Source: Paratinospora sagittata (lineage: Eukaryota > Streptophyta > Magnoliopsida > Ranunculales > Menispermaceae). From it: a stretch of DNA of 64,000 bases. The stretch lies in contig CM069613.1 in assembly GCA_035771175.1 (NCBI GenBank), positions 7,989,501 through 8,053,500 of the forward strand. Reading direction: 5' to 3'. The notes under the pieces are model-generated. The model was not told where the DNA came from, ran no database searches, and saw only the letters and a list, made by a program, of their open reading frames with translations. The position numbers and the translations under genes were made by a program. Numbering within the stretch: position 1 is the stretch's first letter; each line of letters starts with the position of its first letter. This document shows, in pieces, positions 20,671-61,530 of this stretch.

Positions 20671-23414
20671 TGTGGCGACCCCGCGCCCCGGACCACCAAC
20701 CCCGCAGGGAATGGCCTGCGGAATGCCGGGGTGGGACGCCCGGCGTAGGCATCTCCGACCACTCCTCAACTCCCGTGAGGTGGTTGAGACCCTACGAGCC
20801 TTATCTCAAACAACGACATAATATCAAAAGGTACTAAACAAAACTACCCACCGTATTAATCATCAAAGACAAGAGATAATCCATAAAAATGAACCATAAA
20901 TAAAATCATAATCCCTACAGTCCATTAAAATTGACATACACATAAAGTCCAAAATTGTGGGTACAAATAAAAACCGTCATATGCCCACATGGTCTATCTA
21001 ACAAGTCCCAACTCACCCATACTACAATGTGGTAAATGTTATAATTACATAATCCAAAATATAATACTTCATAATTTAAAACACAATTCAATCAAAATGC
21101 CTCTCAACTCACATAGAGGCCTTGGATTCTCTCGCAGGCAAGGCCGTTAAGATATAACTACTCATTTGCCCTTATTCGGGACAGAAGGACCTGAAAGAGG
21201 AAAATGAGGGTGAGCCAACGGTGCCCAGTGAATAGAATTCAAATATGCTATCAATACTCATCAATAAATATCATGTATGCATGTCAATGTGTAGCATGAT
21301 TAAAAGCTCATAACATATAGATATCAAGCATTTATAATAAGTTCGATGCAAGTAAAAGCTTATCAATTTGGATCCACATTCCACATGCATTGGGTTACTA
21401 GTGCACGTCTATTTCACCGTACCGTTGACCCCAATCATTTCCTTTCATAAAACCCTCCTATGACAATGTTAAGTCCCCCTATTAGCCAGATAGATGGGCC
21501 CAACCAAAGTCATAAGGTTTTCTCAAATCAATGCATCATTCAAAACATTAGAACACATTCATGCTTTCAACATACAATATATATAAGTGATATGATGACA
21601 TAAAAGATATAATCATAAATGAAGTCTACTCACAACCAAGCCTCGCGAGAGTATTTCATCACACACGACCACCAAACCGAATCAAGATCCTGAAAAATAC
21701 ATCAATATTCTACCATACATCAATTTCTATGCTCAATCACATAGACATTACACATCAACCCTAAATCAACCCACGTATAAACAATAGGCCTAAATCCCAT
21801 CTAATCCCATCATTCAACTCAAATCACATGACTTAGGCCTCTAATGCATAGTTCTCATACATAAACCATTCTATTAATCAAAAATACTGATTTTCAATTC
21901 CTTAGGCATAAACATGCCCAAATTGGGTCACTTGATCACAAGTAGGCCTAACCCATGATATGGTCACAACCACCAAATCAGTAGCATAATCAAGCCTAAT
22001 CATGCTTAATTTAACATAAGTTACATCAATTCAATGATTCTAGGCCAAAAGCATCAAAAACCCTAAAATAAGAAATTTTTCATACTTAGGTCATATTGCC
22101 GATTTACACTAGGTCACCATGTTCAGCCATGTATATCACTAATTTTGCATCATGGGTTCATCAACAATGGCAACTAGGTCAACATAGTTGACATGCAAAC
22201 TATTTGGAAAGGTCTAAGTTCATATTCTAAATTTAGGTCTAATACAAGCAACCCTACCAATTCTTCATTTAATATTCTATTCAGATGTATCAATCTACCA
22301 ACAGAAATATGTAATCACAAAATCAACCGTACAGATTGAAGTATGTGAAGAAAGAAATATTCTGTCCAAATATCAGCCCAATCCAACGGTGGACCGAAAA
22401 TATAAGTATCTTTCATGAACAAGTCTCTAATCAGACAATTTCTCCTTTCCTGCTACAAATACTCAAACTCAGAGGACTATATCACACAAAAGACTAAACA
22501 CATAAACATCTCCACCGTTCATAATACAGAAATATCAGTTGTAAACTACATACCCAACTTTGATATCCATCCAACGGTATATTGAGGAGATCTATAAGTT
22601 TGAGTGAAACAGCGTGAGAAATCCAAACTTTCTGACCAGCTTTGTTTGAGAGGTTAGATATCTCAGAAGAAACCTCTGATCAAGATCTCCACCGGCTAGA
22701 ATGAATAACCATAAGCTATGAACTTGCTGACAAATTTTGAGCTCAATCTGACCATATATCCCAAAGATTCAGTACTTTGATGAAAATGTCGCAGAGATCT
22801 TCCTCCTGCAACTCCCTCCTTCTTTCTCTTCTTCTTTCCTTTCTCTTCTGTTCTTTCTCTTCTTTTTTTCCTTTCTCTCCACTCACCTCTTTCTAGCACT
22901 TCCTTGATTCCCTCCTTTATTCTCTCCTTGATTCTCTCTTTGATTCCCTCCTTGATTCTCTCCTTGATTCCCTACACTCATTCTAGCACTTCCTTGAGGG
23001 CATGGGACACTTGTCCACTTTCATGCACCAACCTTCACATGTGTTGGTCTCATACTACCCATACCAACCACATGTACTTTAACCAATTTCATGCTTCCAT
23101 GTATTTTAAATGTCCAATCCATTTAATACACCAAACTTTCATTCTCATTTATCCTTTTATTCAATCAATCCTAACTCATATCAATTCATAGTTTAATGGG
23201 CCCATGCATAAATAATAACATATGCATTATAATTTAATTTAACATGACCCATATACAATTTATGATACACATATTTATATACATTATCAAGCATCAACTA
23301 TACAAACATTAAACAACCATCAAACAAACATCAAACATATCAAGGCAACGCATAGAGTTTGGGCAAAGTGCAATTGGGTTATGGGCTAGATGAAATAATT
23401 TTTGGGGCGTCACA
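20671..23414 (-). mobile_element. Gypsy solo LTR (2,744 bp), TSD CAAAC
   Basis: On the plus strand it begins TGTGGCGACCCCGCGCC and ends GGGGCGTCACA, flanked by CAAAC at 20666-20670 and 23415-23419. It contains no internal retroelement region. It is the reverse orientation of the LTR family at 48421-61525 (same terminal sequence GACGCCCC..AAATTATTTCATCTAGCCC). Inserted in Copia gag-pol, whose reading frame resumes across it. A GATTCCCTCCTT-type minirepeat (about 22905-22975) and one copy of the 55-bp LTR repeat (about 21391-21438) lie inside. Confidence 0.92.
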
Positions 23415-24381
23415 CAAACTCATTGATAAGATTTATAGGACTAGAAGTAAACCTAAATAACCCATCAGATGGTGGTGCAGATACAAGGTTGGCTTGATAT
23501 CCAGATAATGGACCACGTTTCGGGCCTCCTTTGTTTGCAAACTTGGATTTGAGGTCTGGGTGAAGAATCCAGCATCTATCCACAGCATGGCCAATGTTGC
23601 TACAATGGCTACACTTCAATTCATTCCTTCTAGCCTTGTTCCCTCTGTCATCTGGACGTCGTTGAGTGGAAATATAGGCTCGTGTGTTAGATATATCTGA
23701 TTTAATTTTTACGGACATAACCTTTTTTCGGGTTTCTTCACGTTGGATAGTAGCACAAACACTTGCAAACGTCGGCAACTCAGAATTCATGAGAATGCGG
23801 CTACAAAGATCTTCATAATCTGGGGTTAGATTTGCCAACAACTGGAAAATATTGTCTTCCTCAGCCCTTTTCAACAAGATTGCCGAGTCAGTGGTATGTG
23901 GTCGATAGACCGCTAACTCATTCCACATGGTCTTCATGCGACCAAGAAACTGAACAAAAGGTTTACCTTCTTGTTGGAAAGAGACAATATCCTTCTTGAG
24001 TTGGAACACCCGTGCAGAATTATTATGATTTCCATAAAACTCTTTTACGGCACTCCATAAATCCGCAGTCGAGTCGGAATAATTGAAAATCTTAGCAATA
24101 TGTGGCTCCATCGTAAAAAGCAACCACGATTGGACCATCTGATCATTAGCAAACCAAACCTTGTATTGAGCAGACTTGACATCCGGAGCGGCATTGCTCT
24201 CATCGATAAAATCAATCCGTGATCTCCCACCAAGAGCTATTGTCACTGCCCTCGACCAAGGAAGATAATTAAAATCATTCAATTGAACCGAGCATAATCG
24301 CTGATTCGAATTGACATCAGAAGAAGAAGAAGATAACGGAACAGTAGAACTTTCCGTGTTGAATGGAACTATTTCTGCCAT
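23415..24381 (-). pseudogene. Copia gag, cut by solo LTR insertion
   Basis: Gag polyprotein of the 17008-25077 element. The ATG at 24381 opens 322 intact residues. A Copia N-terminal motif LNDFNYLPWSRAVTIAL comes first (about residues 36-52), then a gag/UBN2-type region with FQLKKDIVSFQQEGKPFVQF, and a zinc knuckle CSHCSNIGHAVDRC (C-X2-C-X4-H-X4-C, near 23570-23610). After NLINEF the frame hits the solo LTR; beyond it, at 20670, the gag-pol frame resumes with ATYIQAKHDAVDKNEI. Apart from the insertion this stretch is undamaged. Confidence 0.88.
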
Positions 24382-38581: not shown

Positions 38582-39378
38582 TGTAATACCCTAGGTTTGC
38601 ACAAAAAAAAACCAAAAAAAACTTCGAGCAAGGTGCCCGAACCTTCGGGCACCTTTTTTTCCTATTTAAGAACCCCCTCCTAATTTCTCATACTAAAATC
38701 ACTTCTCCTTGTGATTTTTCTTCTCTCTCTCTCACTCATCATGAGTTTTTGTCTTCTCTTTTCGAGACTCTCTTCGCGGTGCAACGCTGTTCTGCTCAGG
38801 GGAAGGCGCCAGTTCGAGAGAAGAGTTTTTATCTGAAAGTAGGGAACGAAATATAGGTTTGCGTGTCTTATAACTTTTATTAAAGTTTACATTCATTTAT
38901 CATTATATTTACTATTTATTTACACTGTATTATTGCGTATAATGTTTATACATATCATACTTATGCTTGTATATTTGTAATTCATGTATTACATTGTTGC
39001 TATGCCGGATTAGTGGTCAATCTGACTCAACCAAACTCAGTCTTGTCCTCAGTAACTTTAAATAGTGAACGAGAGGCAACGTGCTGCTCTAAACGATTGG
39101 TATTTAAGTAGACCTCGTGTCTCACCTCTCAAACTGGAGACTGATCTGGTTGGACGGGGTGCAAGTTTTTGGGCCTACATTTTATATCCTTTGTATTATT
39201 CATTGGAGATTTTGGGAGGATGTTTCCTTAACTATTTTATGTACAAATATATTCTGAAATTAATGAAGTCAGACTTGTACTTAATCGTATTTTCGCACAC
39301 TCGGTTATTGTTATAATGCATTCACGCCCCGTCCGTGAGTGTCCCGTCGGTTTAGGCGTGTCCGGGCGGGGTGTGACA
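38582..39378. mobile_element. LTR-like sequence (about 797 bp), no TSD
   Basis: Starts TGTAATACCCTAGG and ends GGCGGGGTGTGACA, matching the TG..CA borders and CCC/GGGTG-rich ends of Gypsy LTRs. It includes a perfect 12-bp hairpin at 38630-38655 and CT-rich leader-like sequence. The 5-bp flanks do not match, so it may be truncated or old. No coding region. Confidence 0.5.
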
Positions 39379-48420: not shown

Positions 48421-50678
48421 TGTGACGCCCCGAAAATTATTTCATCTAGCCCATAACCCAATTGCATTTTGCCCAAACTCTCTGTGTTGCCTTGATATGT
48501 TTGGTGTTTGTTTGATGGTTGTTTAATGTTTGTATAGTTGATGCTTGATAATGTATATAAATATGTGCATTATAAATTGTGTATGGGTCATGTTAAATTA
48601 AAGTATAATGCATATGTTATTATTTATGCATAGGCCCATTAAACCATGAATTGATATGTGTTAGAATTGATTGAATAAAATGATAAATGAGAATGAAAAT
48701 TTGGTGTATTAAATGGATTGGACATTTAAAATACATGGAAGCATGAGATTGGTTAAAGTACATGTGGTTGGTATGGGTAGTATGAGACCAACACATGTCA
48801 AGGGTGGTGCATGAAAGTGGACAAGTGTCCCATGCCCACTTCTCTTCTCCAAGGAAGTGCTAGAAAGTGAGGTGAGTGGAGGGAAAGGAAAAAAATAAAA
48901 AATAAAAAAAAGAGAGAGGAAAGAAGAAGAGAAAGAAAGAGGGAGTTGCTTGAGGAAAATCTCTGCAACATTTTCATCAAAGAGCTGGATCTTCGTGATA
49001 TATGGTCAGATTGAGCTCAAACTTTGTCAGCAAGTTCGTAGCTTATGGTTATTCATTCTGGTGGTGGAGATCTTGATTAGAGGTTTCGTTTGAGAGATCT
49101 AACCTCTCAAACAAAGCTGGGCGGAAAGTCTGGATTTCTCGCACCGTTTCGCTCAAACTTATAGATCTCCTAAATCTACCGTTGGATGGATATTAGATTT
49201 CGGTATGTAGTTTACAACTGATATTTCCGCATTCTGAGCGGTGGAGATGTTTATGGGTTAAGTATGTTGTGTGATATAGTCATCTGAGTTCGAGTATTTG
49301 CAGCAGGAAAGGAGAAATTGTCTAATTAGAGACTTATTCATCAAAGATACTATCTTTTCAGTCCACCGTTGGATTGGGCTGATATTTGGACAGAAGGTTT
49401 GTTTCTTCAAATACTTCAATCTCTATGGTTGATTTTGTGATTACATATTTTTGTTGGTAGATTGATACATCTGAACAGAATATTAAATGAAGAATTGGTA
49501 GGGTTGCTTGTATTAGACCTAAATTTTGAATATGAACTTAGACCTTTCCAAATAGCTTGCATGTCAACTATGTTGACCTAGTTGCCATTGTTGATGAACC
49601 CATGATGCAAAATCAGTGATATACATGGCTGAACATGGTGACCTAGTGTAAATCGGTAATATGGCCTAAGTATGGAAAATTTCATATTTTAGGGCTTTTG
49701 ATGCTTTTGGCCTAGAATCATTGAATTGATGCAACTTATGTTTAATTAAGCATGATTAGGGTTGATTATGCTACTGATTTGGTAGTTGTGACTATATCAT
49801 GGGTTAGGCCTACTTGTGATCAAGTGACCCAATTTGGGCATGTTTATGCCTAAGGAATTGAAAATCAGTATTTTTGATTAATAGAATGGTTTATGAATGA
49901 GAACTATGCATTAGAGGCCTAAGTCATATGATTTGAGTTGAATGATGGGATTAGATGGGATTTAGGCCTATTGTCTATATGTGGGCTGATTTAGGATTGA
50001 TGTGTAATGTCTATGTGATTGAGCATAGAAACTGATGTATGGTAGGATATTGATGAATGTTTCAGGATCTTGATTGGGTTGATTCGGTTTGGTGGTCGTG
50101 TGTGGTTAAATACTCTAGCGAGGCTTGGTTGTGAGTAGACTTCATTTATGATTATATCTTTTATGTCATCATATCACTTATATATATTGTATGTTGAAAG
50201 CATGAATGTGTTCTAATGTTTTTAATGATGCATTGATTTGAGAAAACCTTATGTGAGACGCCCCGAAAATTATTTCATCTAGCCCATAACCTAATTGCAT
50301 TTTTGCCCAAACTCTATGTGTTGTCTTGATATGTTTGGTGTTTGTTTGATGATTGTTTAATGTTTGTATAGTTGATGCTTGATAATGTATATAAATATAT
50401 GTATCATAAATTGTATATGAGTCATGTTAAATTAAAGTATAATGCATATGTTATGATTTATGCATGGGCTCATTAAACCATGAATTGATATGGGTTAGGA
50501 TTGATCGAATAAAAGGATAAATGAGAATGAAAATTTGGTGTATTAAATGGATTGAACATTTAAAATACATGGAAGCATGAGATTGGTTAAAATACATGTG
50601 GTTGGTATGGGTAGTATGAGACCAACACATGTGAAGGTTGGTGCATGAAAATGGACAAGTGTCTCATGCTCACTTCTA

Positions 50679-50875
50679 GAATCCAAGAATGTGCTAGCAA
50701 ATGAGGTGAGTGGAGGAGAGAATCCAAGAATGTGCTAGCAAATGAGGTGAGTGGATGAGAGAATCCAAGAATGTGCTAGAAAATGAGGTGAGTGGAGGAG
50801 AGAATCCAAGAATTTTCTAGAAAATGAGGTGAGTGGAGGAGGGAATCAAGGAAGTGCTAGAAAGAGGTGAGTGGA
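50679..50875 (+). repeat. 41-bp tandem repeat in Gypsy LTR, about 5 units
   Basis: Units start GAATCCAAGAATGTGCTAG at 50679, 50720, 50761, 50802 and (GAATCAAGGAAGTGC variant) 50843. The same array is at 57921-58117 in the other LTR. The older solo LTR has a single unit near 48850. Confidence 0.88.
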
Positions 50876-52153
50876 GAGAAAGGAAAGAAGAAGAGAAAGA
50901 AAAGAAGAGAAAGGAAAGAAGAAGAGAAGGAAGGAGAGAGTTGCAGGAGGAAGATCCCTGCGACGTTTCCATCAAAGAGGTGGATCTTTGGAATATACGT
51001 TTCCATCAAAGAGATGGATATAAACTTTTGGTATTTAGTGTATAACAGAAATTTCTGTATTCTGAACGGTGGAGATGTTCATAAAATTAGTAGTTTGTGT
51101 GATATAGCCATTTGATTTCGGGTATTTGCAGCAGGAAAGGAGAAACTGTCTGATTAGACACTTGTTCATCAAAGATCCATATCGTTTCGGTCCACCGTTG
51201 GATTGGGCTGATATTTGGACAGAAGGTTTGTTTCTTCACATACTTCAATATGTACGGTTGATTTTGTGATTACAAATTTCTATTGGTAGATTAATACATC
51301 TGAACAGAATATTAAATGAAGAATTGGTAAGGTGCTTGTATTGGACCTAAATTTAGAATATGATCTTAGACATTTCCAAATAGCTTGCATGTCAACTATG
51401 TTGACCTAGTTGCCATTGTTGATGAAACCATGATGCAAAATCAGTAATATACATGGCTGAACATGGTGACCTAGTGTAAATCGACAATATGGCCTAAGTA
51501 TGGAAAATTTCATATTTTAGGGCTTTTGATGCTTTTGGCCTAGAATCATTGAATTGATGCAACTTATGTTTAATTAAGCATGATTAGGGTTGATTATGCT
51601 ACTGATTTGGTGGTTGTGACCATATCATGGGTTAGGCCTATTTGTGATTAAGTGACCCAATTTGGGCATGTTTATGCCTAAGGAATTGAAAATCAGTATC
51701 TTTTGATTAATAGAATGGTTTATGAATGAGAACTATGCATTAGAGGCCTAAGTCATGTGATTTGAGTTGAATGATGGGATTAGATGAGATTTAGGCCTAT
51801 TGTCTATATGTGAGATGATTTAGGGTTGATGTGTAATGTCTATGTGATTGAGCATAGAAATTGACGTATGGTAGGACATTGATGAATGTTTCAGGATCTT
51901 GATTGGGTTGATTCGGTTTGGAGGTCGTGTGTGGTTAAATACTCTCGCGAGGCTTGGTTGTGAGTAGACTTCATTTATGATTATATCTTTTATGTCATCA
52001 TATCACTTATATATATTGTATCTTGAAAGCATGAATGTGTTCTAATGTTTTGAATGATGCATTGATTTGAGAAAACCTTATGACTTTGGTTGGACCCATC
52101 TATCTGGCTAATAGGGGGACTTAACCTTGTCATAAGAGGGTTTTAGGAAAGGA

Positions 52154-52313
52154 AATGATTGGGATCAACGGCACGGTGAAATAGACGTGTACTAGTAACC
52201 CAAATAAAAATGATTGGGATCAACGGCACGGTGAAATAGACGTGTACTAGTAACCCAAATAAACATGATTGGGATCAACGGCACGGTGAAATAGACGTGT
52301 ACTAGTAACCCAA
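52154..52313 (+). repeat. 55-bp LTR tandem repeat, 3 copies
   Basis: ATGATTGGGATCAACGGCAC units start at about 52155, 52210 and 52265. Confidence 0.9.
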
Positions 52314-53035
52314 GGCATGTGGAATGTGGATCCAAATTGATAAACTTTTACTTGCATCGAACCTATTATAAATGCTTGATATCTATATGTTATGAGCTTT
52401 TAATCATGCTACACATTGACATGCATACATGGTTTTTATTGATGAGTATTGATAGCATATTTGAATTCTATTCACTGGGCATCGTTGGCTCACCCTCATT
52501 TTCCTCTTTCAGGTCCTTCTGTCCCGAATAAGGGCAAAGGAGTAGTCATATCTTGAGGGCCTTGCCTGCGAGAGAATCCAAGGCCTCGATGTGAGTTGAG
52601 AGGCATTTTGATTGAATTGTGTTTAAATTATGAAGTACTATATTTTGGATTATGTAATTATAACACTTACCACATTGTAGTATGGGTGAGTTGGGACTTG
52701 TTAGATAGACTATGTGGGCATATGACGGTTTTATTTGTACCCACAATTTTGGACTTTATGAGTATGTCAATTTTAATGGACTGTAGGGATTATGATTATT
52801 ATTTATGGTTCATTTTTTTATGGATTATCTCTTGTCTTGGATGATTAATACGGTGGGTAGTTTTGTTTAATACCTTTTGATATCATATTGTTGTTTGGGA
52901 TAAGGCTTGTAGGGTCTCAATCACCTCACGGGAGTTGAGGAGTGGTCGGAGATGCCTACGCCGGGCGTCCTGCTCCGGCATTCCGCATGCCATTCCCTGC
53001 GGGGTTGGTGGTCGGGGGCGCGGGGTCGCCACAGT

Positions 53036-53048
53036 TGGTATCAGAGCC
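53036..53048 (+). promoter_or_regulatory. Primer-binding site of the Gypsy element (tRNA-iMet type)
   Basis: TGGTATCAGAGCC, complementary to the 3' end of initiator tRNA-Met, lies two bases inside the 5' LTR. Confidence 0.85.
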
Positions 53049-53188
53049 TGATTTTACTAGGTTTGGTCTATGTATTGGACTTAGATGACTTTAACCTAGG
53101 AATTGGGTGAGAGATTTAGGTGATTAAAAAGCTTAAAGGAACTAATTTAAAAGCCTTACTATCATATTTTCTGTGTGTATTATATGAT

Positions 53189-53929
53189 ATGGGTAGTTAT
53201 GAGGCGGGCACTAGTGGGGCCGAGGCTAGTGGAGCTGCAGGGGCAGCAGGACCTCAAATGGCTGTACCTCAGCCTATGCCTACACCTGCTCCTATTGATG
53301 TGGAGAACCCCACTGATCAACGGATCAGATTGCTAGAGAAGTTCATGAAGTTAAAGCCTAAGGAATTCACTGGTGGGGTTGACTTGAAGAAGGCCGAAGA
53401 TTGGCTGAAGAATGTCGAGAAAATCAGTCGCTTCTTGGAGCTTGATGAGGAGTCTCTGGTTCTATGTGCTGCTCACACACTGGAGAGTGATACAGAGGAC
53501 TGGTGGCTTTCAGTGTTGGATACACAGGGGACAGTGAAGAGTTGGGACACCTTCAGACGATTGTTCTTACAGGCTTACGTTCCAGAGATTGAGAGACAGG
53601 CTAAGCAACTCGAGTTTTTGAATCTCGCATAAGGCACCATGTTAGTCAGGGAGTACGAGCTCAGATTTAGGCAGCTCGCAGTTTATGCCCCTGGGTTAGT
53701 TCAGACGCCGAGTGACAAGATTATGAGGTTTTCTTTAAACCTAAGGCCCGCGATCCGACAGGCCTTGTCTGTGACGAAGATGACTGATTTTACGACAGTG
53801 GTCCAGAGGGCCAAACAATACAAGTTGGCTGAGCGGGTTGATGGTATGTCTACACGGGCAGCTCCAGCACGCCTGTCACACCTGCAGCCAGCACTTGTTG
53901 ACTTTGGAGTCGGAGTTACTATTGGTTAG
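53189..53929 (+). pseudogene. Gypsy gag with one nonsense codon
   Basis: The ATG at 53189 begins MGSYEAGTSGAEASGAAGAA, an Ala/Gly/Pro-rich lead. The retrotransposon gag domain follows (RIRLLEKFMKLKPKEFTGG, AEDWLKNVEKISRFLELDEE, DTEDWWLSVLDTQGTVKSWD, TFRRLFLQAYVPEIERQAKQ). A TAA at 53630-53632 sits where Gypsy gags have Gln before GTM; after it the same frame goes on (VREYELRFRQLAVYAPGL, FSLNLRPAIRQALSV) to a TAG ending at 53929. The zinc knuckle is missing because the region beyond is replaced by the tandem array. Only one in-frame disablement within about 245 codons fits a young insertion. Confidence 0.85.
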
Positions 53930-53976
53930 CAAGCCTGTCGAAGTTCCTATGCATCTGCACTCCTGCAGTCAGCCGG

Positions 53977-54270
53977 TTCATCGCACGCCATTCTTGAGCC
54001 GCACGCTCTCCTGTTCAGCCGCATGCTTGTCGGTTTCATCGCACGCCATTCTTGAGCCGCACGCTCTCCTGTTCAGCCGCATGCTTGTCGGTTTCATCGC
54101 ACGCCATTCTTGAGCCGCATGCTCTCCTGTTCAGCCGCATGCTTGTCGGTTTCATCGCACGCCATTCTTGAGCCGCACGCTCTCCTGTTCAGCCGCATGC
54201 TTGTCGGTTTCGTCGCACGCCATTCTTGAGCCGCACGCTCTCCTGTTCAGCCGCATGCTTGTCGGTTCTT
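53977..54270 (+). repeat. 58-bp GC-rich tandem array, 5 copies, between gag and captured host DNA
   Basis: TCGCACGCCATTCTTGAGCC recurs at 53981, 54039, 54097, 54155 and 54213 (exact 58-bp period). Each unit also contains CTCTCCTGTTCAGCCGCATG. Copies are nearly identical (ATGCTC for ACGCTC at 54119, GTCGC for ATCGC at 54211). It is far more GC-rich than the surroundings and ends in the variant GGTTCTTCAACACGCTTGTC. Confidence 0.92.
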
Positions 54271-54427
54271 CAACACGCTTGTCAGTTCGTTTGTGTGAGT
54301 TATACTACTGCTAGTCTGGTTTTCTAGGGGTGGTGGAGTTGGTGATTGAGTTTGTTGGAGGCTGAGATTTTCTGGGCATTAAAAGGAGAAGATAGTAAAG
54401 GAAGAGAGAAAGAAGAGAAGAAATATT

Positions 54428-54545
54428 ATGGCAGGAGGAGAAGGAGGAGCAGCTCCGGCGCCGAAACAGGATGAGTTGCAGCCACATCCGACGAAGGAGC
54501 AGCTGCCCGACATTTCTTACTGCATTACCAGCCCTCCACCATGGC
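54428..54545 (+). other. Nucleobase-ascorbate transporter (NAT) first exon fragment
   Basis: The 39 residues with QPHPTKEQLPDISYCITSPPPW match the conserved N-terminus of plant NAT6/7-type nucleobase-ascorbate transporters. In those proteins the first transmembrane region follows directly; here a GTCAGT donor-like site is followed by intron-like T-rich sequence. A purine-rich 5' leader (54384-54420) precedes the ATG. None of the transporter core is present, so no transport function is possible. Confidence 0.78.
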
Positions 54546-55985
54546 GTCAGTTCCTCACCTCTTTCTTTTTTATTTTGTTTTTTTGTAATTTCTTTTTAAC
54601 GTTCTGGTTTGGCTTTTAAGAGAAATCTCCCAATTATGCTGTTTTTTTTTTTTTTTATTGTGATTTTGTGGTCACTGATGACGATGATGAACTTCACAGC
54701 TAACAGAGACATGGTGGATATTGGAGAAGACCCATTTCTCTTCTCAAACCAATTCCACCCACTTGATTTCAGCTGTTCAAGTTTTGGTAGCAGCCCGTAT
54801 ACGTGGGAGCCTCTTCTAGAATATGGCTTACGCGAGGCAGTGGTACCACCCTTCATGAATTCTTCAATGGATGAAGATGACTTTCCAAGCCAACTTAATG
54901 AACTTGAAGGTGAGTATCAATGCTCAATCCACTTTAGATTGTACTTTATTATTAACAGATTGGCAATTTCATCCTCGTTGTGTTGATTAATTTGCTATTG
55001 GAATTAGAAGCGGAGAAACAACAGATTGTGATGCATGAAAATGGAGAGGGGATGAGTAGTACTGGTACTAATCATGTGGACTTTGGAGGTTTGAATCAAA
55101 TGAGAATTGGATTAGAAGGGGAGAAACAACAAATTGGGATGAATGAAAAGGGAGAGGGGATGATTAGCTGCTGCAGTAGGAGTATTAGTGGTACTGGTAG
55201 TGATCATGAGGAATCGATGACGAAACTGAAGAGGGTGAAGACTCTATCACGCACGAACCTCTCACGCTACTTCTACATGAGCATATCAGAAGCTGCAAAA
55301 GAACTTAAGGTGGGCTTAACGCAGCTGAAGAAGAGGTGCAGGGAATTGGGCATCCCTAGATGGCCTTACAGAAAGTTGATGAGCTTGCAGGTCGTTATAA
55401 AAAATGTTCAGGAATTGGTGGAAGGAGAAGGTGTTTGTGGAGATATGAAGATAAGAGAAGCGTTGAGGTTATTGGAGGAACAAAGGAAATGGCGTCACAG
55501 AAATGCACTGCAGGAAATGGGGGAAGGAGAAGGGGTTAGTAGAGATATGAAGATAAGAGACAGGTTGAGTTTATTGAAGGAACAAAGGAAATGGACTCAG
55601 AGAAAGGTGATGACCTTGCAGACCGTTATGGAAAATGTTGAGGTATTTATCACCATTATATATTGATCTGTATGAGTATTTTGATATCTCAACTTGGGGA
55701 TGTTCTGAGTAAGATAATTACTTGTTAATTAATTATGTACTGCAGGAAATGGGGGAAGGAGAAAGGCTTGGTGGAGATATGAAGATAAAAGATGCTTTGA
55801 GTTTATTGGAAGAAGAAAGGAAGTTGATGGAAGAGATGCCAGAGGTGCATCTTCAGGAGAAAACAAAGAAACTAAGGCAGGCTTGGTTCAAGGCCAACTG
55901 CATGAAAAGAAAGGAAACCAACGGCAAGAAAAGAAAAGACATGACGCTAGAGTGGCACCCAGTTGCTATTTCTCGTTTAAATTAA
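54428..55985 (+). CDS. RKD: Captured chimeric gene: NAT exon 1 joined to an RKD (RWP-RK) transcription factor
   Basis: Predicted exons 54428-54545, 54700-54909, 55008-55642 and 55746-55985 (GT-AG introns of 154, 98 and 103 bp; phases 1, 1, 0) give 1,203 nt, 400 residues, with no stop. Exon 1 encodes MAGGEGGAAPAPK..ISYCITSPPPW, the N-terminus of a plant nucleobase-ascorbate transporter, without membrane segments. Exons 2-4 are an RKD factor: acidic N-terminus, RWP-RK DNA-binding domain at about residues 188-236 (SRYFYMSISEAAKELKVGL, LKKRCRELGIPRWPYRKLMS), leucine-rich repeats (GDMKIREALRLLEEQRKW twice more in variant form), and the family C-terminus EKTKKLRQAWFKAN. RKDs are nuclear factors for egg-cell and embryo identity. 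The domain is intact. The exon 1-2 splice (GGC|GTCAGT donor) is inference; without it the RKD could start at ATG 54711. AATAAA at 56033 may end the transcript. Confidence 0.8.
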
Positions 55986-56353
55986 CAGTTTATCATGTAT
56001 GAAGTAAGTAGTGATTTTCACAAACTTGGCTGAATAAAGTGTCAACTTAAGTAGATCTTGTGATCATTGGTCTTAAGAGATACTGATTAAGCTGTTTTAT
56101 GAGTAGATGCTAGAGTAACTAAATTTATCAAGTCCCCTAAACCCTAAAATGATGGCCAATCATGAAGGTTGCATATCATGTCAGATGATCAATGTGTTAC
56201 TACACTTCTATACCTAAATTAAAAGTAGGGGACTTAAGTTTATGATGTGGAGCAACTGATAACAGTTTGTCTTAAATTAACAATAGACCGAATATCAGAT
56301 GTCTTCATATTGAAATTCTCCATTTTCCTTTAGTAAAAGGGCCTATTCCTATT
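55986..56353 (+). other. 3' flank of captured RKD gene
   Basis: Non-coding, AT-rich. A polyadenylation-type AATAAA lies at 56033-56038, 48 bases past the stop. AACAGTTTATCA right after the stop (55985-55996) recurs in the 21-bp repeats at the far junction. Confidence 0.6.
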
Positions 56354-56416
56354 AGTATGTTTGAACAGTTTATCAGTATGTTTGAACAGTTTATCAGGAC
56401 TTTTGAACAGTTTATC
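56354..56416 (+). repeat. 21-bp tandem repeat, 3 copies, at the host/integrase junction
   Basis: AGTATGTTTGAACAGTTTATC at 56354 and 56375, with variant AGGACTTTTGAACAGTTTATC at 56396, lie immediately before integrase homology begins (about 56425). Confidence 0.9.
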
Positions 56417-56424
56417 AGTACATT

Positions 56425-57452
56425 CCTTCCCGAGGAGACATAATGCTGTTTGGGTTATTATTGATCGCTTGACCAAGTCCGCTCACTTTCTACCGGTGAA
56501 CACTAGGGATTCTATGGGCAAGCTGAGCAGACTCTATATGCGGGAGATAGTCAGATTACATGGAGTGCCAGTTTTGATTGTGTCAGATAGGGATCTGAGG
56601 TTTACATCGGTATTCTGGCAGGGGTTGCAGAGGCAGCTCGACACTAGACTAGATCTCAGTACCGCTTTTCACCTGCAGACGGATGGCCAGTCTGAGAGGT
56701 TGATATCGATTTTAGAGGATATGCTTCGAGCTTGTGTCCTTGAGTCCAGTGGTAACTGGGAGGAGTACATACATCTGTGTGAGTTCGCGTACAACAACAG
56801 CTATCAGTCCAGTATTGGCATGGCTCCTTTTGAGGCATTGTATGGTCGACCCTGTAGATCTCCGATCTGTTGGACGGAGGTAGGGGATGTTACGGTGATG
56901 GGACCAGAGTTTGTACAAGAACACATAGAGAAGATTAAGAGGATCAAGCATAATCTGAAGGTAACCCAAGACAGGCAGAAGAGTTACACTGATGCCAAGC
57001 GGAAAACCGTAGAGTTCGAGGTGGGTGACCAAGTTTTATTGAAGGTCTCACCTCAGAAGGGCCAAACTAGATTTGGGATAAAAGGCAAGCTCGCTCCTAG
57101 ATTTATTGGGCCGTTCGAGGTTTTAGAACGAATTGGCCCCGCCGCTTACCGATTAGCCTTGCCACCTCAGTTAGCAGCAGTCCACAATGTCTTTCACGTG
57201 TCAATGTTGAGAGTGTACAAGAGTGATTTTGATCACGTTTTGGACTGGAGGAACATTGAACTGAGGCAGGATGGGACTTATGATGAGGAACCTATTCAGA
57301 TACTTGATCGGAAGGTCCAGAGGTTACGTAACCGTGAAATTCCGATGGTTAAGGTGAGATGGCAGTTCCATGGCGAGGAACAGGTTACTTGGGAGCGTGA
57401 GGACTACATGATGGAGCACTTTGCCGAGTTCATGGGCTTAGGAAATTCTTAA
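56425..57452 (+). pseudogene. Gypsy integrase core and C-terminal domain (truncated at N-terminus)
   Basis: Open through 57452. The DDE triad is present: first Asp in WVIIDRLTKSAHFLPV, second in VLIVSDRDLRFTSVFW, Glu in QTDGQSERL. The C-terminal part has FEVGDQVLLKVSP, GKLAPRFIGPFEVLERIGPA and a chromodomain-like tail (IPMVKVRWQFHGEEQVTWER). The N-terminal HHCC zinc domain and all upstream pol are missing. The open frame reaches back to 56361 through the 21-bp repeats, so the apparent N-terminus (NSLSVCLNSLSG) is repeat-derived. The frame is undamaged although it cannot be expressed as a normal polyprotein. Confidence 0.85.
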
Positions 57453-57920
57453 CCTTAAAACTTCGAGGACGAAGTTCATTCTAAGGTGGGTGTGATGTGA
57501 CGCCCCGAAAATTATTTCATCTAGCCCATAACCTAATTGCATTTTTGCCCAAACTCTATGTGTTGTCTTGATATGTTTGGTGTTTGTTTGATGATTGTTT
57601 AATGTTTGTATAGTTGATGCTTGATAATGTATATAAATATATGTATCATAAATTGTATATGAGTCATGTTAAATTAAAGTATAATGCATATGTTATGATT
57701 TATGCATGGGCTCATTAAACCATGAATTGATATGGGTTAGGATTGATCGAATAAAAGGATAAATGAGAATGAAAATTTGGTGTATTAAATGGATTGAACA
57801 TTTAAAATACATGGAAGCATGAGATTGGTTAAAATACATGTGGTTGGTATGGGTAGTATGAGACCAACACATGTGAAGGTTGGTGCATGAAAATGGACAA
57901 GTGTCCCATGCTCACTTCTA

Positions 57921-58117
57921 GAATCCAAGAATGTGCTAGCAAATGAGGTGAGTGGAGGAGAGAATCCAAGAATGTGCTAGCAAATGAGGTGAGTGGATGA
58001 GAGAATCCAAGAATGTGCTAGAAAATGAGGTGAGTGGAGGAGAGAATCCAAGAATTTTCTAGAAAATGAGGTGAGTGGAGGAGGGAATCAAGGAAGTGCT
58101 AGAAAGAGGTGAGTGGA
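57921..58117 (+). repeat. 41-bp tandem repeat in Gypsy 3' LTR, about 5 units
   Basis: Counterpart of the array at 50679-50875, with the same unit order. Confidence 0.88.
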
Positions 58118-59740
58118 GAGAAAGGAAAGAAGAAGAGAAAGAAAAGAAGAGAAAGGAAAGAAGAAGAGAAGGAAGGAGAGAGTTGCAGGAGGAAGATCCC
58201 TGCGACGTTTCCATCAAAGAGGTGGATCTTTGGAATATACGGTCAGATTGAGCTCAAATATTTTCAGCACGTTCGTAGCTTATGGTTCTTCATTCTGGTC
58301 GGTGGAGATCTTGATCAGAGGTTTCGTATAAGAGATCTAACCTCTCAAACAAAGCTGGTCGGAAAGTCTAGATTTCTCGCACCGTTTCGGTCAAACTTAT
58401 AGATCTACTAAATCTACCGTTAGATGGCTACCAAATTTGGGTATGTCGTTTAAAACTGATATTTCTACAATCGGAACGGTGGAGATCGTAATTAAAGGCT
58501 TTTGCTAAGAGATATAATCTCTCAAACGAAGCTGGTCGGAATTTCTGGGTTTCTCATGCCGTTTCGGTCAAACTTGTATAGCTCCTCAATCTACCGTTGG
58601 ATGGATATAAACTTTTGGTATTTAGTGTATAACAGAAATTTCTGTATTCTGAACGGTGAAGATGTTCATACAATTAGTAGTTTGTGTGATATAGCCATTT
58701 GATTTCGGGTATTTGCAGCAGAAAAGGAGAAACTGTCTGATTAGACACTTGTTCATCAAAGATCCATATCTTTTCGGTCCACCGTTGGATTGGGCTGATA
58801 TTTGGACAGAAGGTTTGTTTCTTCACATACTTCAATATGTACGGTTGATTTTGTGATTACATATTTTTATTGGTAGATTAATACATCTGAACAGAATATT
58901 AAATGAAGAATTGGTAAGGTGCTTGTATTGGACCTAAATTTAGAATATGATCTTAGACATTTCCAAATAGCTTGCATGTCAACTATGTTGACCTAGTTGC
59001 CATTGTTGATGAAACCATGATGCAAAATCAGTAATATACATGGCTGAACATGGTGACCTAGTGTAAATCGACAATATGGCCTAAGTATGGAAAATTTCAT
59101 ATTTTAGGGCTTTTGATGCTTTTGGCCTAGAATCATTGAATTGATGCAACTTATGTTTAATTAAGCATGATTAGGGTTGATTATGCTACTGATTTGGTGG
59201 TTGTGACCATATCATGGGTTAGGCCTATTTGTGATTAAGTGACCCAATTTGGGCATGTTTATGCCTAAGGAATTGAAAATCAGTATCTTTTGATTAATAG
59301 AATGGTTTATGAATGAGAACTATGCATTAGAGGCCTAAGTCATGTGATTTGAGTTGAATGATGGGATTAGATGAGATTTAGGCCTATTGTCTATATGTGA
59401 GATGATTTAGGGTTGATGTGTAATGTCTATGTGATTGAGCATAGAAATTGACGTATGGTAGGACATTGATGAATGTTTCAGGATCTTGATTGGGTTGATT
59501 CGGTTTGGAGGTCGTGTGTGGTTAAATACTCTCGCGAGGCTTGGTTGTGAGTAGACTTCATTTATGATTATATCTTTTATGTCATCATATCACTTATATA
59601 TATTGTATCTTGAAAGCATGAATGTGTTCTAATGTTTTGAATGATGCATTGATTTGAGAAAACCTTATGACTTTGGTTGGACCCATCTATCTGGCTAATA
59701 GGGGGACTTAACCTTGTCATAAGAGGGTTTTAGGAAAGGA

Positions 59741-59845
59741 AATGATTGGGATCAACGGCACGGTGAAATAGACGTGTACTAGTAACCCAAATAAACATGA
59801 TTGGGATCAACGGCACGGTGAAATAGACGTGTACTAGTAACCCAA
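59741..59845 (+). repeat. 55-bp LTR tandem repeat, 2 copies
   Basis: Same unit as 52154-52313, with one copy fewer in the 3' LTR of the same element. Confidence 0.9.
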
Positions 59846-60640
59846 GGCATGTGGAATGTGGATCCAAATTGATAAACTTTTACTTGCATCGAACCTATTA
59901 TAAATGCTTGATATCTATATGTTATGAGCTTTTAATCATGCTACACATTGACATGCATACATGGTTTTTATTGATGAGTATTGATAGCATATTTGAATTC
60001 TATTCACTGGGCATCGTTGGCTCACCCTCATTTTCCTCTTTCAGGTCCTTCTGTCCCGAATAAGGGCAAAGGAGTAGTCATATCTTGAGGGCCTTGCCTG
60101 CGAGAGAATCCAAGGCCTCGATGTGAGTTGAGAGGCATTTTGATTGAATTGTGTTTAAATTATGAAGTACTATATTTTGGATTATGTAATTATAACACTT
60201 ACCACATTGTAGTATGGGTGAGTTGGGACTTGTTAGATAGACTATGTGGGCATATGACGGTTTTATTTGTACCCACAATTTTGGACTTTATGAGTATGTC
60301 AATTTTAATGGACTGTAGGGATTATGATTATTATTTATGGTTCATTTTTTTATGGATTATCTCTTGTCTTGGATGATTAATACGGTGGGTAGTTTTGTTT
60401 AATACCTTTTGATATCATATTGTTGTTTGGGATAAGGCTTGTAGGGTCTCAATCACCTCACGGGAGTTGAGGAGTGGTCGGAGATGCCTACGCCGGGCGT
60501 CCCGCTCCGGCATTCCGCATGCCATTCCCTGCGGGGTTGGTGGTCCGGGGCGCGGGGTCGCCACATTATGACTTTGGTTGGGCCCATCTATCTGGCTAAT
60601 AGGGGGACTTAACCTTGTCATAGGAGGGTTTTAAAAAGGA

Positions 60641-60806
60641 AATATTTGGGGATGAGAATGGTACGGTGAAATAGACGTGCACTAGTAACCCCAAATAAAC
60701 ATGATTGGGGTCAACGGCACGGTGAAATAGACGTGCACTAGTAACCCCAAATAAACATGATTGGGGTCAACGGCACGGTGAAATAGACGTGCACTAGTAA
60801 CCCCAA
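60641..60806 (+). repeat. 55-bp LTR tandem repeat, 3 copies (outer solo LTR)
   Basis: Variant unit ATGATTGGGGTCAACGGCAC with GTGCACTAGTAACCCC; the first copy is diverged (GGGGATGAGAATGGTACGG). Confidence 0.88.
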
Positions 60807-61530
60807 TGCATGTGGAATGTGGATCCAAATTGATAAGCTTTTACTTGCATCAAGCTTATTATAAATGCTTGATATCTATATGTTATGAGCTTTTAATCAT
60901 GCTACACATTGACATGCATACATGATGTTTATTGATGAGTGTTGATAGCATATTTGAATTCTATTCACTGGGCACCGTTGGCTCACCCTCATTTTCGTCT
61001 TTCAGGTCCTTCTGTCCCGAGTAAGGGCAAAGGAGTAGTCATATCTTGAGGGCCTTGCCTGCGAGAGAATTCAAGGCCTCGATGTGAGTTGAGAGGCATT
61101 TTGATTGAACTGTGTTTTAAATTATGAAGTATTATATTTTGGATTATGTAATTATAACACTTACCACATTGTAGCATGGGTGAGTTGGGACTTGTTAGAT
61201 AGACCATGTGGGCATATGACGGTTTTTATTTGTACCCACAATTTTGGACTTTATGTGTATGTCAATTTTGATGGACTGTAGGGATTATGATTTTATTTAT
61301 GGTTCATTTTTATGGATTATCTCTTGTCTTGGATGATTAATACGGTTGGTAGTTTTGTTTAGTACCTTTTGATATTATGTCGTTGTTTGAGATAAGGCTC
61401 GTAGGGTCTCAACCACCTCACGGGAGTTGAGGAGTGGTCGGAGATGCCTACGCCGGGTGTCCCGCCCCGGCATTCCGCACGTCATTCCCTGCGGGGTTGG
61501 TGGTCCGGGGTGCGGGGTCGCCACATTAAG

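Follow-up and report, generated by a model that had tools for sequence, protein, structure and literature searches.

How does a gene of the RKD type come to lie inside a retrotransposon, and in what form was it copied there? RKD genes are associated with egg-cell identity and, in Citrus, with clonal seed formation (PMC6090715, PMC9671666). In the genome of Paratinospora sagittata (1.29 Gb in 4049 contigs), a 64,000-nucleotide stretch (C25:7989501-8053500, hereafter the window) contains a Gypsy long terminal repeat (LTR) retrotransposon that holds such a gene in its interior. We suggest that this is very probably a recent, non-autonomous element in which the centre of pol was swapped for a mobile cassette, a foreign first exon fused to RKD (exon-1::RKD), and which has passed through RNA.

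A non-autonomous Gypsy element with a chimeric RKD gene

The interior of the element reads gag, RKD, integrase, with every part on the forward strand (Table 1). A prior reading from the letters alone (the sequence-only reading) had described a Gypsy element flanked by a TTATG target-site duplication (TSD), with a sense RKD gene between gag and integrase, and Pfam matches, LTRs and TSD all agree with that description. The gag part matches Retrotrans_gag (E 9.6e-7) and the integrase part matches SH3_Tf2-1 above the Pfam cut-off (E 3e-26) and a chromodomain below it. The two LTRs, a 5-bp TSD, a primer-binding site (PBS), gag and a chromovirus-type integrase (its chromodomain sub-cut-off) place the element among Ty3/Gypsy retrotransposons. 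No protease, reverse transcriptase or RNase H was found between the LTRs when six internal frames were scanned against Pfam, and the element is therefore non-autonomous, needing these proteins in trans.

The LTRs differ by 15 substitutions at 2725 aligned sites (K = 0.0055, with the end of the 5′ LTR taken one base too long in this comparison), which at 1.3e-8 to 7e-9 substitutions per site per year would put the age of the pair at about 0.2–0.4 million years. The faster of the two rates has been used before (PMC10011142). The element is nested in a solo LTR that belongs to the same family. Its 3′ LTR contains an insertion of about 350 bp with no counterpart in the 5′ LTR, indicating that the 3′ LTR was altered during or after insertion.

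The profile check proposed in the sequence-only reading bore out the homology to RKD proteins, as the RWP-RK domain scored 78.5 bits against a cut-off of 29.3 (E 3.4e-22; E 1.4e-21 in the fused protein). No PB1 domain was present in the fused protein among Pfam matches to E 1; with an RWP-RK domain and no PB1 found, as in RKD, the gene appears to be of the RKD rather than the NLP type. A foreign first exon is joined in frame to RKD by a GTCAGT donor and a TTCACAG acceptor, giving a gene model of four exons with 400 open codons, and an alternative RKD-only frame starting from the ATG at 54678 is likewise open. Exon 1 (39 codons) gave neither a Pfam match nor a related solved structure; we tentatively take it to be the N-terminus of a nucleobase-ascorbate transporter.

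The whole cassette is host-derived, comprising the foreign first exon, the RKD gene, RKD upstream repeats and 3′ flank, and it replaces the centre of pol. Capture of a host segment, which the sequence-only reading had placed at 54300-56350, thus stands, but the segment really extends over about 53865-56425 and includes two fused gene parts.

A sister element and passage through RNA

An element on C11, at the RWP-RK match C11:30847432 (L031, L007 and L032), carries gag, exon 1, RKD and integrase in the order seen in the window. Both capture junctions are identical to those of the window, so that the sister copy for which the sequence-only reading had called a search does exist. The internal parts of the two elements are 95–99% identical, and the LTR pair of the sister has a K of 0.0037. 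In the sister, a stop interrupts the RKD frame directly behind the RWP-RK domain.

The two elements differ by an intron. The sister lacks exactly window positions 54546-54699, from the GT donor through the AG acceptor, while a homologous stretch is kept in all of a first set of ten exon-1-bearing copies on other carriers (see below), and both splice motifs are present in 17 of 20 such copies in a second set, the remaining three lacking one motif. In addition, the window lacks exactly a 104-bp GT..AG intron that is present after AATGTTCAG in L009, a copy on a second Gypsy family, here called carrier X. Aligned to the window, L009 gives a gap-free join with a score of 235 when spliced and 177.5 when unspliced. 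This intron is absent from the sister as well, and its donor is kept in every exon-1-bearing carrier copy (10/10 in the first set, 20/20 in the second). The exact loss of two GT..AG introns indicates that RNA of the window family was spliced in sense, copied back and re-inserted, at least twice. As in gene capture of the kind known from the maize element Bs1, a host gene thus lies in sense in an LTR element and has been copied through RNA. The sense carrier has lost these introns and the antisense carrier has kept them.

A native intron after GATTTCAG is likewise missing in exon-1-bearing copies; its acceptor can be placed only to within a few bases, and we do not count it as proof of splicing.

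Table 1. Positions of the element, its captured gene and related features (window coordinates unless a contig or locus is named)
Feature	Position	Strand	Basis or remark
Whole Gypsy element	50254-60565	+	TSD TTATG at 50249-50253 and 60566-60570
5′ LTR	50254-53033	+	LTR comparison (2.8 kb)
PBS-like TGGTATCAGAGCC	53036-53048	+	starts two bases past the 5′ LTR
gag part	53120-53864	+	Retrotrans_gag match; 3′ edge from sister/carrier comparison; one in-frame stop at 53630
Captured cassette	53865-56425	+	edges good to a few bases; collinear with carrier-X copies, same bounds in sister
58-bp tandem repeats, upstream part of cassette	53919-54325	+	
Captured first exon	54428-54545	+	encodes MAGGEGGAAPAPKQ...SPPPW
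GT..AG intron, exon 1 to RKD	54546-54699	+	154 bp; exact stretch absent in sister L007
RKD exon	54700-54909	+	gene model
RKD exon with RWP-RK domain	55008-55642	+	Pfam; carrier-X 104-bp intron after AATGTTCAG exactly absent
Final RKD exon including stop	55746-55985	+	gene model
Integrase C-terminal part	56426-57452	+	SH3 domain, weak chromodomain match (Pfam)
3′ LTR	57496-60565	+	3.1 kb; one 55-bp repeat fewer than 5′ LTR, plus insertion
Outer solo LTR, same family, split by element	48421-50253 and 60566-61525	+	own TSD TTAAG
Sister LTRs	about L031:2060-5060 and L032:684-3684		sister element on C11
RWP-RK arrays	C1:3344296-3445143; C14:9294721-9337638 and 11780125-11840160; C2386:2772-43667		26; 15 and 12; 15 matches

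The cassette on other carriers

Twenty stretches fetched around RWP-RK matches were used to study the carriers. Carrier X has LTRs of about 1.43 kb, a PBS (TGGTATCAGAGC) and reverse transcriptase, RNase H and integrase domains, and a complete copy of about 10.4 kb runs from L029:4349 to L009:8723 inside a 1148-bp satellite. RKD is flanked by the 5′ LTR on one side and a gag-like remnant on the other, and it is antisense to the pol of carrier X at ten of the ten loci where the two occur in one arrangement (L009, L010, L012, L013 and L016-L021). Carrier X is therefore a family with an antisense additional open reading frame, many of its copies bearing a gene that runs counter to gag-pol. The gag-like remnant has no Pfam match, nor have the two frames scanned in L020, and no clean TSD was seen in the single copy checked. 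The cassette is collinear between the window and copies of class X167, including its flanks (exon 1, upstream repeats and 3′ flank).

Some further features of carrier X were observed. A gag-like N-terminal frame and a second, unassigned frame lie near the 5′ LTR (L020:2848-3366 and L009:6209-6469, both on the reverse strand), the missing portions of gag-pol differ between carrier X and the window family, and the 1148-bp satellite flanks two carrier-X copies (L029, L030, L009:8717-10000 and L010:1-1326).

A third carrier is a dispersed unit, about 12 kb long, that shows no carrier-X features (L011, L014 and L015; also L055 and L056). Its ends and type were looked for and not found, and assigning it to the Helitrons or Pack-type elements would be guesswork. 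It holds the captured exon 1 twice; one of the two precedes RKD and the other a LOG-like fragment, for which the best match is PDB 2a33 (At2g37210, E 1.5e-7). Pol-like matches occur in other arrangements in L022 and L025. The three 140-class copies among the fetched stretches lack exon 1, and two of them (L018 and L019) keep the native intron after GATTTCAG. The captured donor gene of the sequence-only reading is thus upheld as a sense RKD capture but not as a simple one, since the exon-1::RKD chimera is also dispersed on other repeats.

Amplification of RWP-RK in the host genome

A PF02042 profile search of the host genome returned 655 first-look candidates, of which 150 were scored; the window copy is not among these 150, all of which exceed the cut-off. 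Recurrent dispersed frames of 130, 167 and 140 amino acids (n = 27, 17 and 18) make up 62 of the scored matches and are spread over the chromosomes. Another 68 lie in four tandem arrays, and the remaining 20 comprise single genes and variants. RWP-RK is thus massively amplified in this genome, a regulator copied more than 100 times. The array copies, parts of which are in L026-L028, have native-type introns; in L028, a piece consisting of upstream region plus first exon is repeated at a spacing of about 845 bp.

One copy on C12 (L006) is gene-like, with 284 open codons (acceptor assumed) and no carrier-X or window-family LTR within 8.9 kb of flank; it looks like a chromosomal gene. It is bounded by a 350-bp direct repeat (74-423 and 2056-2400, 94.6% identical).

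Origin of the cassette and competing explanations

In a tree of 23 copies (L005 and L025 left out), the window and sister elements are joined (100/100) on a branch of 0.088, and the rows nearest to them by path are X167 copies. We infer that the cassette was probably already mobile, on carrier X and the 12-kb repeat, before it entered the window family. Entry may have occurred by recombination, for example by template switching with RNA of the already mobile cassette. Sense RNA would then have been made and part of it spliced, after which a reverse transcriptase acting in trans would have copied the spliced RNA for re-insertion. The spread under LTR control envisaged in the sequence-only reading is supported as far as sense RNA, splicing and re-insertion go; transcription may be driven by the LTR or by the upstream repeats of the cassette. 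Several observations weigh against this account: the deeper fork of the tree is weak (68/99); the RWP-RK motif reads GIPRWP in the window, gene-like copies and arrays but GIRRWP in X167 copies, which rules out the sampled X167 copies as immediate donors of the window copy; two further introns remain in window and sister alike, so that splicing before copying was partial; and the sense family is known from at least two copies, window and sister.

The same motif bears on an alternative that we regard as unlikely, namely direct read-through transduction from a chromosomal RKD gene, either independent of the other mobile copies or as their source. The gene-like GIPRWP is kept in the window and lost in both X167 and X130, and sense orientation together with intron loss is typical of transduction (PMC7264820). 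An independent event is difficult to reconcile with what the window and X167 share over the whole cassette, namely the foreign exon 1 and the intron that follows it, the upstream repeats and the 3′ flank. As for transduction as the source of carrier X, the latter keeps introns that the window family has lost, which indicates that the sampled window family is not the source of X. That an assembly chimera or repeat collapse created the order gag-RKD-integrase is still far less credible, to the point of being negligible: many near-identical copies in the genome do make for a setting prone to such error, but identical order and junctions recur on another chromosome, in an element with its own LTR pair and the internal identity to the window given above.

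It could also be argued that the mobile chimeric protein represents a new gene retained by selection, to the benefit of either the element or the host. The fused frame is open in the window and, over its whole length, in 19 of the 30 carrier copies that bear exon 1 (5/10 in the first set and 14/20 in the second, including L050 and L051); two of the 30 (L011 and L013) hit a stop in the gene model and nine gave no model by motif search (L005 and L008 were left out of the gene models). In a neutral simulation, 1.15% of frames stayed free of stops at 0.088 changes per site, the branch length to the window family, and the ratio of nonsynonymous to synonymous changes (dN/dS; 120 codons, L024 and L027 left out) was 0.28–0.29 between carrier X and the gene-like L006 and 0.33–0.60 between the window and other classes. 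Against selection, the copies were drawn from the best-scoring rows of the profile search, and the long branch may lie partly in a functional gene. Moreover, ratios within classes are near neutral (0.92 for 11 X167 copies and 0.62 for six X130 copies, all chosen for intact frames), which suggests that intact frames mostly reflect youth. Window and sister differ by four nonsynonymous and one synonymous change (dN/dS 1.0), the sister frame is cut short after the domain, and the RWP-RK domain of the window is altered at positions constant in the other fetched copies. We therefore consider a selected gene improbable and, given near-neutral variation within classes and sets picked for intact frames, refrain from claiming that the mobile protein has been selected.

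Possible effects on the host

Most likely, the cassette is a passenger gene by which copies of an RKD-like frame multiply. Transcripts of carrier X would contain antisense RKD, and window-type or gene transcripts sense RKD, so that duplex RNA and small interfering RNA might arise and RKD RNA be damped. That such damping is a likelier host effect than extra RKD activity is speculation, possible although on balance not probable; we rank it first among the effects because carrier X holds the gene antisense to its own pol. Antisense action on an RKD gene has been seen before: in a single transgenic sweet orange line, antisense expression of CitRKD1 abolished nucellar embryos (PMC6090715). More of a long shot is that the cassette's upstream repeats give its carriers expression in reproductive cells, in which case the regulator would belong to the mobile gene pool of the plant, and sense and antisense RKD RNA and chimeric proteins might couple retroelement activity to egg-cell or embryo fate.

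Comparison with known systems

Gene capture by LTR elements is already established; capture of RKD is the new part. Among the open-licence papers listed in literature searches, none has a title or abstract that places an RKD gene with a chimeric exon within an LTR element. Maize Bs1 is an LTR element that has transduced portions of host genes (PMC13317346, PMC7264820), and in both cases parts of more than one host gene are fused to a chimeric frame. Unlike Bs1, the element described here carries a transcription factor with a whole DNA-binding domain and residual introns, splicing is seen as a difference between two copies, and the cassette is present on other carriers too. Genes captured by LTR elements number 672 in rice and 1343 in sorghum (PMC3726574); these likewise represent gene amplification by LTR elements, but as many-gene catalogues, whereas here one regulator is found on several carriers and in both orientations. 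In pearl millet, an expansion of RWP-RK genes is associated with LTR elements, and RWP-RK genes overlap intact LTR elements as they do here; in the available part of that account (PMC10011142), unlike in the present case, no capture junction, chimera or orientation is described, nor any spliced copy.

Carrier X resembles Grande and Retand, in which additional open reading frames also lie antisense to gag-pol in many copies. According to a review (PMC7264820), those frames are mostly located between pol and the 3′ LTR and are not traced to a host gene, whereas the carrier-X gene is found on the other side of pol, towards the 5′ LTR, and clearly derives from RKD. An RKD-type gene is also tied to a transposon in Citrus, where CitRKD1/CitRWP has a miniature inverted-repeat transposable element in its promoter (PMC6090715, PMC9671666); there a small transposon sits beside one gene, while here the gene rides within the elements.

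A genome with an RKD gene on many retroelements, in sense on some and antisense on others and also in the form of a spliced chimera, offers a way to test how LTR elements acquire and process host genes, with the two orientations as a built-in control for intron loss in sense and retention in antisense. It could likewise be tested whether mobile copies of a reproductive regulator alter its dose or silence RKD.

Related LTRs elsewhere in the window

Two further LTR sequences lie on the reverse strand of the window: a second solo LTR of the element's family at 20671-23415, with a GTTTG TSD, and a carrier-X-like LTR remnant at 38831-39378, which is 80–87% identical.

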